Below are positions 4,245 through 27,664 of a DNA stretch of 30,346 nt, piece by piece. Origin of the DNA: a virus; the IMG/VR virus record IMGVR_UViG_3300032401_000053, positions 1 to 30,346 of that record. One strand, given 5' to 3'. The notes under the pieces were generated by a model that was not told where the DNA came from, made no database searches, and saw only the letters and a list, made by a program, of their open reading frames with translations. Numbering within the stretch: position 1 is the first letter of the stretch; each line of letters starts with the position of its first letter. Both the position numbers and the translations under genes were made by a program.

Positions 4245-4546
4245 CGCTCCTATATTAAAATTGTTAAAAAGTGGGGGATTTCTCCCCCTTAGCGGTTACC
4301 CGCAATCTCCACTCGGCTTACGCCTAATGGGTAATGTTCCTCTCGCCAATGTTATGGAGCGGTTTTGTGTTAGTAGCACTTGCTTAACCCTTACACATGT
4401 TTAACCACTAACCGCAGAGCTTGGAACTGAGGCGGCATTCCAAGGTGCCTATATATTCGCTCCTAACGTAGCTCTAAGTTTCCCTAGAACTGAGGCTGGT
4501 CAACTCGGCTTTTGCAAGCCTCCTCCTTTAGGGAATGGGTGATTGA
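4245..4546 (-). ncRNA. Candidate structured RNA in a 300-nt gene-free gap
   Basis: No convincing reading frame fills this gap. On the minus strand it holds three short hairpins closed by GNRA tetraloops: GGCTT(GCAA)AAGCC at 4507-4520, GGC(GTAA)GCC near 4315-4324 and GCGG(GTAA)CCGC at 4292-4303. Other pairs are TTCCCTA with TAGGGAA (4480-4486, 4529-4535) around the first of these, CTTGGAA with TTCCAAG (4420-4426, 4438-4444), and GCG-GTTAGT with ACTAAC-CGC (4407-4415 with 4369-4374 and 4359-4361). A 10-base direct repeat GAACTGAGGC (plus strand) sits at 4424 and 4487. GNRA loops form only in the minus-strand transcript, the direction of the operon. I do not recognise a known class; group I intron core motifs were not found. 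Confidence 0.5.
4263..4290 (-). terminator. Rho-independent terminator or attenuator inside the late operon
   Basis: The minus strand reads AAGGGGG-AGAAAT-CCCCC followed by ACTTTTT: five G-C pairs, a six-base loop and a short T tract. It is the 3' end of the structured gap and lies about 20 bases before the candidate GTG of the 172-aa gene. A terminator at this point would cut the late operon in two, so it may be conditional (attenuation) or mark the end of a distinct small RNA. Confidence 0.55.
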
Positions 4547-4876
4547 CTAACTATCTCCATAATAATAAAATTCTGTTTCTACTAAATTACAATAACCGCC
4601 TGAAACATAAGGGGTAAAATTGGTTGAATCTACGTCTATATGTGTAACGGGATGTTTCAGATAAAATGTTGTATCACCGGTTAACACTATTTGCCATCTA
4701 TAATTATTTAAAGGATCCTCTCCTCGTGGTACAGGCATTGCACCGTTTAAATCAGTGAGACGAACGAAGTTTCCTGTAACATAACCAGGATTAACGTCAA
4801 TTTCAACAACACAGGGCAAAGCGTTCGTTATTGAAACTATGTTCGATCGGCGTGGTATCTGTCCTATGTCTGGCAT
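4547..4876 (-). CDS. FCCH-like beta-domain virion protein
   Basis: Almost the whole 109-aa protein is one beta domain (residues about 13-98) that matches a domain in the protein at 5795-6559: both have PCVV near the start, then an NxxR/RF-type strand, NNYRW or NNRYR, TTFYLK or TTFSLK, and end YVSGG. A looser copy is in the tail hub at 68-1984. Phage proteins with this fold are often annotated as ubiquitin-activating E1 FCCH domain proteins and occur in tails and head decorations. The gene lies directly behind the duplicated 208-bp element. The last residues (YYYGDS) precede a stop that opens the structured gap. It may be a complete small protein or the first part of an interrupted gene. Confidence 0.6.
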   Translation of the reverse strand: MPDIGQIPRRSNIVSITNALPCVVEIDVNPGYVTGNFVRLTDLNGAMPVPRGEDPLNNYRWQIVLTGDTTFYLKHPVTHIDVDSTNFTPYVSGGYCNLVETEFYYYGDS

Positions 4877-4879
4877 TTC

Positions 4880-5087
4880 TTATCCGTTGGACGCGAGAAA
4901 ACTCGCTCATTTATGGGCGAGATGAAGCGCGCCTCTTGTATTTAATTCGTTTTCCATAATATACTACCTCTCTTGTCAGGCAAGCAAGGCCTAGTTGCCT
5001 TAAAAACCTTAAGTTAATTGGCCCTCGGATTAGATGGCTTGGGAGTAATCCCTAGAAGCCTTCGCATTTATGCGAGGGAGTAATCAC
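4880..5087 (-). repeat. 208-bp structured element, copy A (other copy at 24907-25114)
   Basis: This element occurs twice, both on the minus strand, with the same length and about 13 differences by my count (near 94% identity); the 97 bases at 4991-5087 are identical. In the minus transcript it begins inside the last six codons of the HNH gene and folds as a junction: CCCTCG pairs with CGAGGG around CGCA(TAAA)TGCG and GGCTT-CTA-GGGA(TTAC)TCCC-AAGCC, followed by AGGCAA...TTGCCT, then a small frame starting MENE, then mutually exclusive CTCGC/GCGAG/CTCG stems. Seven of the differences fall in the ten-base loop between conserved CTCGC and GCGAG arms. It ends exactly at GGATAA. Structured leader RNA, or the tail of an endonuclease insertion, are the main readings. 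Confidence 0.8.
4907..4957 (-). CDS. Mini-ORF in element copy A (possible leader peptide)
   Basis: Sixteen codons (MENELNTRGALHLAHK) start at an ATG preceded by GAGAGGTAG. The stop is a TGA inside the variable loop. In the other copy the same frame continues to 25 codons, and past this TGA the frame here would read on in a matching way (A-x-FL-x-SNG). The stop falls between the alternative CTCGC/GCGAG stems, a layout reminiscent of attenuator leader peptides. Translation is not shown. Confidence 0.3.
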   Translation of the reverse strand: MENELNTRGALHLAHK

Positions 5088-5733
5088 GTTCCTCTACATG
5101 ACATTGCTTGCAAAGCCAAATTACATCAAGTGGTTTTGAATAATCTGGGTGGTGGCCCTCTGGTTTACATTCTTTACTGCATTTAATGCATTGGCCTGGT
5201 CTTTGTATCGTTCCGTTTTTCACTGAGTAATGTACCAATTTTCTTGCTTTACCTTCTAACGTCTTATGTATCTGTCTAGAAGCAGACCATGCTTTAAGCC
5301 ATTGCTTGTAGCTGTCTTTTGCTTTTGTGCGAATATTATATTCTTTAATTTTATCGGGTATTTTTTTAAGGTATTCTTTATGTCTAGCATTAACTTTTTC
5401 TTTGTGTTTCTGATAATACTTTCTTCTACCCTCTTTTACTTTGTCTGGGTTATTCTCTCTCCACTTTTTTGTGGTTTCTAATACTTGCTCTTTATTGTTT
5501 TCTTTCCATTCTTTATTTATCGCAATAAATTTTTCTCTATTCTTTTTCCAATAGCCTTTACGATCGCATTTTTCTAATGATGCCTTTCGTTTTTCTGGGT
5601 TTTTTTTTACCCATTCTCTAGCTACTTCATTTCTACACTTTTTGCATTTTGTATTGTATCCATCTTTACTTTTTTTGAGTTTTGAAAACTCTTGTAATTT
5701 TTTTTCTATCCCACATCCCATACATATTTTCAT
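5068..5733 (-). CDS. HNH homing-type endonuclease with zinc-ribbon N-terminus
   Basis: The 221-aa protein has an N-terminal zinc ribbon (C4, C7, C30, C33: ICMGCG then CKKC), a lysine-rich middle made of repeated helical units of about 18 residues (WRENNPDKVKE style), and a C-terminal HNH nuclease with C182-x2-C185, the GHHPDYSKP core (H194, H195) and C208-x2-C211-H. Such proteins cut phage DNA at a specific site and spread by repair. It sits alone between two virion genes that share a domain, so it is probably a selfish insertion. Its start is directly under a 12-bp hairpin, and its last codons belong to the duplicated 208-bp element. Short consecutive runs of lysine codons make it more AT-rich than its neighbours. 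Confidence 0.9.
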   Translation of the reverse strand: MKICMGCGIEKKLQEFSKLKKSKDGYNTKCKKCRNEVAREWVKKNPEKRKASLEKCDRKGYWKKNREKFIAINKEWKENNKEQVLETTKKWRENNPDKVKEGRRKYYQKHKEKVNARHKEYLKKIPDKIKEYNIRTKAKDSYKQWLKAWSASRQIHKTLEGKARKLVHYSVKNGTIQRPGQCIKCSKECKPEGHHPDYSKPLDVIWLCKQCHVEERDYSLA

Positions 5734-14947: not shown

Positions 14948-15292
14948 TTAGCAATCTTTGTTTATTTTTTTCTTTGCCTTTAGGCGAGGGAGTAGTGTGT
15001 TGTCGGTATCACTAAAATGCATATATGAATCAGATTTAGAAAAACCAGATGCTTGAAGGTTTTCCAATGGAGAATTTAGATCTCCTCCGAAAATATATGT
15101 AAACTTTGTCTTTTGCATAACTTCGACTCTGATTTGAGGATCAGGATCTTTAATCAATCCTTTTAATCTTTCTTTTGCGATATTGGCAACTTTTTCAATT
15201 ACAGGATGATCTTTTTCAGGGAACCGATGAACGATTATTGCTCCTGATACTACCGTTAAAGATCCATAATAAGCCTTAATTTCTATTTTCAT
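14948..15292 (-). CDS. Early-region protein of unknown function
   Basis: The 114-aa protein (MKIEIKAYYGSL start) has a beta-rich N-terminus, a helix ending RLKGLIKDPDP, another strand (RVEVMQKTKFTYIFGG) and a basic C-terminal tail (KAKKKINKDC). The ATG at 15292 follows GGTG by five bases and overlaps the upstream stop as ATGA, which is better supported than the GTG three codons earlier. I do not recognise a domain. It is part of the early gene string from 18933 leftward. Confidence 0.6.
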   Translation of the reverse strand: MKIEIKAYYGSLTVVSGAIIVHRFPEKDHPVIEKVANIAKERLKGLIKDPDPQIRVEVMQKTKFTYIFGGDLNSPLENLQASGFSKSDSYMHFSDTDNTLLPRLKAKKKINKDC

Positions 15293-15471
15293 GTAAAACA
15301 CCGTTTTTCTTTGTAAATCGCTTTGATCGAATGTGGTTTTAATGCTTCGTCGTTTTTTTGATGTCCTAACATATATGCATGGTGAAAAATAAATGCTCCA
15401 GCCAGCAATATGCAGATTGCAGCTACAAAAAACAAAAATAGATGAATATCTGTACGTTCGCTTTTATCCAT
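15289..15471 (-). CDS. Single-pass membrane protein
   Basis: The 60-aa protein has a charged N-terminus (MDKSERTDIH), one strong transmembrane helix at residues 11-34 (LFLFFVAAICILLAGAF is in it) and a basic, soluble C-terminus (IKAIYKEKRCFT). The ATG at 15471 has AAGGAAAAA upstream and is preferred over an earlier one that lies inside the previous gene. Small one-helix proteins of this type occur in early operons, sometimes as host-takeover or exclusion factors. Its stop overlaps the next start as ATGA. Confidence 0.65.
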   Translation of the reverse strand: MDKSERTDIHLFLFFVAAICILLAGAFIFHHAYMLGHQKNDEALKPHSIKAIYKEKRCFT

Positions 15472-24867: not shown

Positions 24868-24906
24868 TTTTACTCCTGTGCATATTTTCAAGTTTCTCTA
24901 GTTTTT

Positions 24907-24984
24907 TTATCCGTTGGACTCGAGAAATCTCGCCACTAAAGGAGCGAGATGAAGCGCGCCTCTTGTTTTTATTTCGTTTTCCAT
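24907..24984 (-). CDS. Mini-ORF in element copy B (possible leader peptide)
   Basis: Twenty-five codons, MENEIKTRGALHLAPLVARF then LESNG, from an ATG with GAAAGGTAG upstream. The stop TAA is the last triplet of the element. Copy A has the same frame but stops nine codons earlier. The shared pattern RGALHLA-x3-A-x-FL-x-SNG could mean a real peptide or simply the pairing needs of the RNA. Confidence 0.3.
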   Translation of the reverse strand: MENEIKTRGALHLAPLVARFLESNG

Positions 24985-25114
24985 AATATACTACCTTTCT
25001 TGTCAGGCAAGCAAGGACTAGTTGCCTTAAAAACCTTAAGTTAATTGGCCCTCGGATTAGATGGCTTGGGAGTAATCCCTAGAAGCCTTCGCATTTATGC
25101 GAGGGAGTAATCAC
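24907..25114 (-). repeat. 208-bp structured element, copy B
   Basis: Same length and about 94% identical to copy A at 4880-5087, in the same strand, without an endonuclease gene in front. The last codons of the HNH frame (D-Y-S-L-A-stop) are still readable here, so this copy may be the scar of a second HNH insertion. The conserved stems (CCCTCG/CGAGGG, GGCTT/AAGCC, AGGCAA/TTGCCT, CTCGC/GCGAG/CTCG) are all kept, while the loop between CTCGC and GCGAG differs at seven of ten bases. It lies between the repeat fibre gene and the gene at 24867, with no homology beyond its two ends. Confidence 0.8.
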
Positions 25115-25192
25115 ACTTGAACTGACTTTAATATTCATTAAATATTTTTTTTGCAATATCAACGTGAAATAGCAAGTCTCGTGTTTTTTCAT
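25079..25192 (-). CDS. Small ORF entering element copy B
   Basis: Thirty-seven codons (MKKHETCYFTLILQKKYLMN start) begin at an ATG with a strong ribosome site, CACAGGAGGTTAT. The frame runs into the 208-bp element and stops within its first 35 bases, in a frame different from that of the HNH tail. It may be the truncated start of a gene whose middle was lost when the element arrived, or a leader peptide. The gap 25115-25237 has no other gene. Confidence 0.4.
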   Translation of the reverse strand: MKKHETCYFTLILQKKYLMNIKVSSSVITPSHKCEGF

Positions 25193-25237: not shown

Positions 25238-27664
25238 CTAGGTTTGCCTTACAATAAAATAATCAAATGTACTTACATCTGTTGCTACAGCAGCCCCAAC
25301 AGCACTAAAAGATGCAATGACGAATGAAGCACCAGCACTAATCGTGGTAATTGGAAATCCTAAAGCTGGAGATCCGTTAAGCGCTGAACGTGTAACAAAT
25401 ATTCTATCACCAGCTGCTATATTGGTATTTGCAACTGTCACCGTACCTGCAATTAGGGTTGCTCTTCCGATAAAATCTGTAACAGCTCCACCATTCAATT
25501 GAAGTTGAGTTGCAACGTTTACAAGTGCTAAGTTACCAGAAACGTTTACTCCTCCAGATCCAGCTTTCAGAGCTAAACTAGCAGATCCTGTTTCTGTACC
25601 AACCGTAATCACGTTAGCTGCTGCGCCAGTTCCAAAATTCAAAGTCTTAACACCAGTATTTGCTGCGTAGTTAATTGTTTGAATTCCAGTACCTCCAAAG
25701 ATAGTACCTGTACCTGTTTGTGCAGTTCCACCTATACTCAAGGTTCCGCTTGTTGTAGCTGCACCGATTGTATAGGTTGTAGTTGCTGCGCCATCTAGCG
25801 TGAAGTTGCCTGTTCCAGCTTTTAGAGAAAGGGATGCTGCGCCTGAAATCGAGCCGATTGTGACTAAGTTAGCTACAGCACCTGTAGCAATATTAACAAC
25901 CTTAGCAGCTGTTGCGCCACCGGCGATGTTAACTGTTGTAGCCCCTTCACCTGCTCCGATTGCCACAATATTAATTCCAGAACTTGATCCTAATGTCATA
26001 GTTCCAGTCTGTGCAGTTCCACCAATAGCTATCGTTCCTGTTGTTGTAGAAGCTCCGATGGTATATGTACTTGCTGCGTTACCGTCTAAAGCAAAGTTAC
26101 CAGTGCCGTTCAATAGAGTTAAACTTGATGCGCCGTTACTTGAGCCTATAGAAATAAGATTAGCTCCGGCCCCTGTCGCGAGTGTGACAGTTTTACCGCC
26201 GGTGGAATTGGCAATATTTATCGTTTGGGCCCCTGTACCTCCAGCTATGGTCATAGTGCCTGTATTGGCACCGGTACCACCAAAGTTTATGGTTCCGCTA
26301 GTTGTTGTAGGACCAAATGTGTAAGCTGTAGTAGCTGCACCATCAAGGCTAAAATTACCAGTTCCGGCTTTTAAAGTAAGAGATGCGGCACCTGAAGCCG
26401 AACCGATTGTCACTACGTTAGCAACCGCCCCGTCGGCAATTTTTACCACTTTAGCACTTGTTGCCCCTGTAGCGATGTTGACGGTTGTCGCGCCTTCACC
26501 AACTCCAAGAGACAGTATATTTGTACCAGAAGATGAACCAACTGTAATGGTTCCAGTCTGTGCAGTTCCGCCAACCGAGATAGTACCAGTTGTCATCCCT
26601 GTACCGACGTTTACAGCACCCGCTACTTGTACGGCAGCTATGGAAACGGTTGTCGCTCCAGATCCGCCGGCAATTATAAGAGCATTTGTACCTGAAGACG
26701 ATCCGAGCGTCATAGTTCCAGTCTGTGCGGTTCCACCAACCGAGATAGTACCTGTAGTGGTTGCTGCGCCAACTGTATAAGTTGAAGTTGCAGCGCCATT
26801 AAGAGAAAAGTTACCAGTGCCGACAAGGAGTGAGATTGAAGAAGTTGATGAAACACTACCTAGGGTCAACACATTAGAAACCGCTCCGGTTCCTATATTA
26901 ACGGCTTTAGCTGAACCAGCTCCGCCGGCGATATTTACGGTTGTCGCCCCTGTCCCCGCGCCAACTGCCACAATATTTGTGCCTGAAGACGATCCGATCG
27001 TCATGGTGCCTGTTTGTGCAGTTCCGCCTACGGTGATAGTGCCTGTAGTTGTTGCAGCTCCTATCGCGTAAGTCGATGTTGCAGCGCCATTAAGAGCAAA
27101 GTTACCTGTTCCTACGTTGATATTTACAGCCGCAGCACCGCCGGTATTCCCGATTGTAGTTACGATGCCACTACCATTACCGATAGTTGTTGTATTGTTT
27201 GAAGTAAGAGTTGTGAATGCACCTGCTGCTGGAGTTGTGCCACCAATTGCGGGTGGGGCTGCAAATACATCTGCTAGGTTTGATGGTGTAACTAATAAAG
27301 CAAGTGCGGGTGTTGACGGGGTACCTGCAACAGCTTCTGCATTTGTTGCAAGTTGACCAATACCTGCTACTGTATCAGTAGCCACAGGAGCACCGGCGAT
27401 TGCCAAAGCATCAGCGTAAAACTTTGTAGCCACAGGATATAAGATTGAAGATGTTCCTTCAGTAATAAAAACTACACCCTCGACAGCAGCTGTAGCAGAT
27501 GGGACAAGATCGCCAACGGCACTTGCAAGAGTTGCAGGACTAATGTAAAGCTCTTGGCTATCTCCTGCTGCTGCTTCTACAGAATTAGCCGCTCTTGTAG
27601 ATCCTGTTAACGATTGATTTGATTGGCTTCCAGTGTAACTGGTAGAACGGGCAAATTTTCCCAC
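25238..27664 (-). CDS. Repeat-built tail fibre
   Basis: The 808-aa protein has an N-terminal phage-fibre type domain (about residues 1-150; ELYISPATLASAVGD, then DTVAGIGQLATNAEAVAG), then five consecutive repeats of roughly 85-150 residues, each opening GNF-[AST]-L-[ND]-G and containing TGTISVGGTAQTGTMT, GSSSGTN and GATTVNIA, which predict a long beta-solenoid or triple-stranded shaft. A short C-terminal part (about 730-808) is different and may be the tip. It starts at GTG with AAGAGG upstream. Near-identical repeat DNA makes recombination-driven length change likely. Ala, Gly and Thr codons make it more GC-rich than the neighbours. Confidence 0.85.
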   Translation of the reverse strand: MGKFARSTSYTGSQSNQSLTGSTRAANSVEAAAGDSQELYISPATLASAVGDLVPSATAAVEGVVFITEGTSSILYPVATKFYADALAIAGAPVATDTVAGIGQLATNAEAVAGTPSTPALALLVTPSNLADVFAAPPAIGGTTPAAGAFTTLTSNNTTTIGNGSGIVTTIGNTGGAAAVNINVGTGNFALNGAATSTYAIGAATTTGTITVGGTAQTGTMTIGSSSGTNIVAVGAGTGATTVNIAGGAGSAKAVNIGTGAVSNVLTLGSVSSTSSISLLVGTGNFSLNGAATSTYTVGAATTTGTISVGGTAQTGTMTLGSSSGTNALIIAGGSGATTVSIAAVQVAGAVNVGTGMTTGTISVGGTAQTGTITVGSSSGTNILSLGVGEGATTVNIATGATSAKVVKIADGAVANVVTIGSASGAASLTLKAGTGNFSLDGAATTAYTFGPTTTSGTINFGGTGANTGTMTIAGGTGAQTINIANSTGGKTVTLATGAGANLISIGSSNGASSLTLLNGTGNFALDGNAASTYTIGASTTTGTIAIGGTAQTGTMTLGSSSGINIVAIGAGEGATTVNIAGGATAAKVVNIATGAVANLVTIGSISGAASLSLKAGTGNFTLDGAATTTYTIGAATTSGTLSIGGTAQTGTGTIFGGTGIQTINYAANTGVKTLNFGTGAAANVITVGTETGSASLALKAGSGGVNVSGNLALVNVATQLQLNGGAVTDFIGRATLIAGTVTVANTNIAAGDRIFVTRSALNGSPALGFPITTISAGASFVIASFSAVGAAVATDVSTFDYFIVRQT

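Follow-up and report, generated by a model that had tools for sequence, protein, structure and literature searches.

Gene-less IS200/IS605-type elements with a TnpB omegaRNA core in a phage genome record

A duplicated element and its insertion sites

The window (i.e., the whole 30,346-nt stretch analyzed, positions 1 to 30,346 of IMG/VR record IMGVR_UViG_3300032401_000053) contains a single pair of long intergenic repeats, at 4880-5087 and 24907-25114. A pairwise comparison revealed 13 mismatches over 208 bp and no gaps, in agreement with the equal lengths and approximately 13 mismatches reported by an earlier, sequence-only reading of this DNA. The similarity is far above chance (BLASTN E value, 1.9e-91) and breaks off sharply at either end. 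The length of 208 bp given in that reading holds for the repeat; the element proper comprises 204 bp, the leading four bases (TTAT) being the target motif and lying outside the element. The element reads on the + strand, and the flanking phage genes are on the - strand. The features of the two sites are as follows.

4880-4883 (+), TAM-like motif TTAT (CTTAT with its preceding base) on the left side of copy 1, from a motif survey of 26 insertions
4884-5087 (+), first 204-bp non-autonomous IS200/IS605 element (copy 1); its removal in silico recovers the HNH 3' end, and its boundaries were set by comparison with chlamydial copies
4889-4933 (+), left-end imperfect hairpin of copy 1, with an inner stem-loop at 4902-4921 (arms CTCGC/GCGAG); covariation across 15 left ends
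5068-5733 (-), HNH endonuclease gene, C terminus replaced by copy 1 (EEHKKCQT to EERDYSLA); homologs and in-silico excision
24906-24910 (+), TTTAT target motif left of copy 2, from the same motif survey
24911-25114 (+), copy 2 of the element, 204 bp; pairwise copy comparison and the HNH excision analysis
24916-24960 (+), left-end hairpin of copy 2, with the loop at 24934-24943 apparently flipped; covariation and flip control

A fixed short motif lies 5' of the insertions: TTTAT directly precedes 22 of the 26 related insertions (a count that leaves out L023, a chance match), compared with a background frequency of 0.24%. When 4884-5087 was cut out in silico, the HNH protein ended in CHVEEHKKCQT, with a stop codon that overlaps the beginning of the gene that follows. 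Four HNH homologs of related phages, located beside homologs of the same neighboring genes and without the element, end in CHxxEH. Excision restores CHVEEH at this position; the final histidine of the motif was thus lost through insertion of copy 1, which disrupted the HNH endonuclease gene. The expected HNH end is obtained without assuming any duplication, i.e., a target-site duplication is absent. A natural allele of the same phage without the insertion was not detected, and a pattern search for relatives of the HNH protein returned only distant matches, which lacked the element. In locus L050, TTTAT occurs at the homologous, unoccupied HNH position.

Seven of the 13 mismatches between the copies fall at 4907-4916, and the CTCGC and GCGAG arms around them are identical in both copies, as previously counted. 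A single assumed flip of the loop lowers these seven mismatches to three, which was equaled in 4 of 301 trials with random substitutions at the same sites. The cluster therefore need not represent seven independent, or many selected, changes.

Derivation from IS200/IS605 elements of Chlamydiota

Neither copy contains a transposase gene, and neither tnpA nor tnpB is encoded in the 30-kb record, which may be a fragment. Both ends carry subterminal imperfect hairpins in common with an element that encodes a Y1 TnpA. In IS200/IS605 elements, such subterminal hairpins are recognized by TnpA as single-stranded DNA. A complete element of the parent type was identified in a Simkania metagenome-assembled genome (MAG; locus L076), where tnpB (317 aa; PF01385, PF07282, and NCBIfam NF040570 guided_TnpB) is divergent from tnpA (139 aa; PF01797) and where the right end of the element consists of the last tnpB codons, LALGLDGLGAIPRSLR. 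The right end in the window is likewise a tnpB tail, and thus the repeat represents a deletion derivative retaining the left end, the tnpB tail, and the right end. The IS605-type elements of Chlamydiota (L076 and L133) and their tnpB-only relatives (L099 and L101) share the same left and right ends at approximately 80 to 96% identity; unlike the window element, they carry tnpB, with or without tnpA. Each copy is thus almost certainly a tiny non-autonomous transposon of the IS200/IS605 family (MITE/PATE type) that has lost its own genes and retains an omegaRNA core, the guide-RNA component of the RNA-guided DNA nuclease TnpB.

Searching with the portal protein yielded 57 loci of related phages, including G015, in which the two element ends occur separately, one just 3' of tnpB and the other just 3' of a Y1 tnpA. 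Within the G015 record, these pieces are located at the two extremities, an arrangement consistent with a circular or broken assembly. Another related phage has an element of approximately 100 bp composed of only left- and right-end hairpins (L016:4107-4203), together with a lone right-end-like piece (L016 1218-1250). A different left-end-like motif, GGCCGTGCTTCCTCTCTGTCCTAAAGGACAGAGTACCCGCGC, is repeated in the related phages L026, L027, and L028 (e.g., L027:5000-5097) and probably represents another IS605-type lineage. Within the window, a 23-nt match to the right-end hairpin at 14972-14994 (-), in the 3' end of an ORF at 14948-15301, is a possible old remnant of the element. The window also encodes, at 25238-27664 (-), an 808-aa tail-fiber-like protein with degenerate internal repeats of 107 to 300 nt.

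BLASTN, which had been suggested as a check, returned no match for a 212-bp query against phages and plasmids, and viral contigs scanned for exact occurrences of the first motifs gave none either. A right-end motif scan of approximately 85,000 species yielded genuine matches exclusively from this phylum (Parachlamydiales, Simkania, Simkaniaceae, and a MAG grouped with them); pattern matches in Shewanella, Halobacillus, and Pseudoalteromonas were rejected as chance hits in unrelated sequence. Among the Chlamydiota, which were reached via the Simkania MAG, relatives of the element (with or without tnpA/tnpB) were detected in 40 of 234 genomes. Several of these contain full-length gene-less copies, identified with a model of the element's middle part. 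Genome G104 contains at least 20 near-identical element pieces, many of which terminate contigs, as would be expected for a repeat that multiplied recently. It shows a burst of a 271-bp version with extra hairpins in the right end (L185:244-514).

Because the element lineage was restricted to Chlamydiota in the species scan, the group of phages with P22-type portals that includes the window, G015, and G037 probably infects Chlamydiota. Portal relatives occur in 9 of the 234 Chlamydiota genomes at just 24 to 32% identity; at this level, the portal is no proof of host. The isolated phages known for Chlamydiota are mainly small single-stranded DNA microviruses.

The sequence-only reading had interpreted the repeat as an RNA under folding selection, possibly an attenuator with alternative hairpins near a mini-ORF, placed upstream of virion genes. 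The constraint on folding is real: across 15 diverse related left ends, 94.7% of the hairpin pairs are kept, and the covariation score is 0.367, compared with 0.168 after shuffling (reached in 0 of 500 shuffles), which bears out the stem covariation that had been proposed as a check. The CTCGC/GCGAG hairpin is nevertheless the left end of an IS200/IS605 transposon, and the constrained RNA is the omegaRNA core at the other end. A role in cis as an attenuator or regulatory leader of the virion genes downstream, to which the intergenic position of both copies and their stable hairpins would lend themselves, is contradicted by the evidence and very improbable. Copies occur at unrelated sites in bacterial genomes, copy 1 lies inside the HNH gene, the constrained RNA and the phage genes are on opposite strands, and the downstream gene (the 4547-4876 family) is present in relatives, few of which match the element. 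Both copies do lie upstream of phage genes; this position is the insertion site, and RNA from the element would be antisense to those genes. The mini-ORF differs in length between copy 1 (16 codons) and copy 2 (25 codons) and is therefore not conserved.

A HEARO-like or intron-like mobile RNA belonging to the neighboring HNH gene is equally improbable and likewise contradicted. Copy 1 does adjoin the HNH gene, with a HEARO close by, but copy 2 has no HNH gene beside it, the chlamydial copies are found in other contexts, and the four HNH homologs mentioned above lack the element. Restriction of the element to HNH genes, which had been named as a possible refutation of the folding proposal, is contradicted by copy 2 and by the chlamydial copies. 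Rfam searches gave no match in the element or in the chlamydial copies, and the covariance model of HEARO (RF02033) did not match the element. The nearby HEARO RNA, a guide RNA of the IscB type, is itself complete (4331-4547 on the - strand; 144.9 bits over the full model; 337 bp from copy 1), has no adjoining IscB/IsrB gene, and is absent in eight related phage loci.

The omegaRNA core and upstream motifs

In the preferred reading, each copy is a miniature, gene-less IS200/IS605 transposon composed, in order, of a left-end hairpin, a promoter-like sequence, a short structured 5' part, the TnpB omegaRNA core, and the right end. The parts downstream of the left-end hairpin are as follows.

4936-4965 (+), promoter-like TTGTAT - 18 - TATACT of copy 1, right after the left end; spacing kept in most gene-less copies
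4978-5009 (+), element-specific 5' RNA part, putative helix P1 with inner hairpin H1; modest covariation
5018-5083 (+), last 21 codons of the lost tnpB, LALGLDGLGVIPRSLRIYARE, followed by the stop codon; matches the tnpB 3' end in L076
5020-5087 (+), TnpB omegaRNA core: stem 1 at 5020-5039, pseudoknot of 5028-5032 with 5081-5085, GGG/CCC stem at 5041-5052, and UUUA-capped stem 4 at 5059-5078
5088-5103 (+), predicted guide of copy 1, GTTCCTCTACATGACA, in the HNH gene; placed immediately after the right end according to PMC8612924
24963-24992 (+), promoter-like TTGTTT - 18 - TATACT of copy 2, from the same spacing survey
25115-25130 (+), predicted guide of copy 2, ACTTGAACTGACTTTA, assigned by position only

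The core resembles the omegaRNA (reRNA) of ISDra2 (PMC8612924 and PMC10097598), whose cryo-EM layout includes a UUUA loop (PMC10097598). In both, stem 1 is pseudoknotted to the last bases of the scaffold, stem 4 is capped by UUUA, the scaffold ends at the transposon right end, flanking DNA serves as the guide, and the TAM is at the left end. The scaffold of the window element overlaps the tnpB 3' end and the right end, and its guide is assigned by position. The two systems differ in TAM (TTTAT in the window element and TTGAT in ISDra2), in the length of the scaffold core (approximately 68 and 116 nt, respectively), and in the lack of tnpB in the window element.

In an alignment of 23 sequences, made from sequence alone, 96% of the cells of the core pair, with 43 double changes (0/500). 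For the pseudoknot, which joins the loop of stem 1 to the final bases, pairing holds in 115 of 115 cells, and 19 double changes occur. Pseudoknots slid along the alignment paired in at most approximately 50%, a comparison that is biased toward the chosen layout, since the structure was placed after reading PMC10097598 and viewing the sequences. Most of the 23 rows are tnpB-bearing elements; right-end conservation is partly inherited from such parents and is not by itself proof that gene-less copies act as guides. The gene-less rows (window, G227, G230, G104m, and G135) all retain the pseudoknot, with several different base combinations.

Upstream of the core, TTGNNN - 17/18 - TANNNT stands straight after the left end in most gene-less copies; a consensus promoter scanner did not call the motif on the + strand of the window because its -35 element is weak. 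For the P1 and H1 helices, which follow the motif, own arms paired better than swapped ones, with P values of 0.009 to 0.12 and 0.05 to 0.07, respectively, varying with the copies included; this modest covariation is suggestive but does not amount to proof.

Possible guide function and spread

Ends-only derivatives of IS200/IS605 elements (PATEs) have been described in Haloquadratum walsbyi (PMC3119063) and Halanaerobium hydrogeniformans (PMC7290912). Like these, the window element has ends with subterminal palindromes, no genes, an oligonucleotide target, and no target duplication, and the Halanaerobium PATE also keeps a tnpB tail and the right end. The window element differs from PATEs in being phage borne, in its Chlamydiota lineage, in the recurrent promoter-like motif and 5' helix, and in the covarying omegaRNA core. 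The PATE kind is thus already known; less usually, this member is carried by a phage, belongs to a Chlamydiota lineage, retains the omegaRNA fold in copies without genes, and has a nuclease-less HEARO nearby. A search of the openly available literature turned up nothing on guide RNAs of PATEs, and we claim no priority.

The element may be mobilized by a Y1 transposase (TnpA) supplied in trans by the chlamydial host or a related phage. By the single-strand transposition mechanism of IS200/IS605 (PMC8612924), TnpA would excise the element as a single-stranded circle, which would reinsert 3' of TTTAT. Transcription from the putative left-end promoter would give an RNA whose last approximately 16 nt derive from the flanking DNA, like those of a TnpB guide RNA, and TnpB of the host or of a co-infecting element could be directed by this RNA to cleave the unoccupied site, in which TTTAT adjoins the flank. 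We propose that such cutting would preserve or spread the insertion. No exact target for either predicted guide was found elsewhere; the best for copy 1 was a 12/16-nt match at the homologous HNH site of L050.

We judge the chances that the RNA is actually used as a guide to be about even. The main rival explanation, which has the same identity and a different function, is that of an inert ends-only relic moved by TnpA, whose omegaRNA core is a passenger unused by any TnpB. We regard this as a strong contender that falls a little short of an even chance: the Halanaerobium PATE has the same makeup (left end, last 58 nt of tnpB, and right end; PMC7290912), right-end bases also serve transposition, and many copies in G205 are decayed. 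Against it, diverged gene-less copies (G227, G230, G104, and G135) keep the long-range pseudoknot by compensatory changes, and the promoter-like motif and the extra helix recur upstream.

More tentatively, guide use may extend to a long-lived family of mobile, protein-less guide-RNA genes shared by Chlamydiota and their phages. Each unit would combine transposon ends, promoter, and omegaRNA, depending on TnpA of the host for movement and on its TnpB for homing; phage-borne units, which in the window stand beside a nuclease-less HEARO, might act in guide-only homing against co-infecting phages that lack them. The element links a group of tailed phages to probable Chlamydiota hosts. Two types of OMEGA guide-RNA unit without a nuclease are present in this phage genome (i.e., two TnpB-type copies and one HEARO), and the presence of both types in one phage makes guide-only selfish spread testable.
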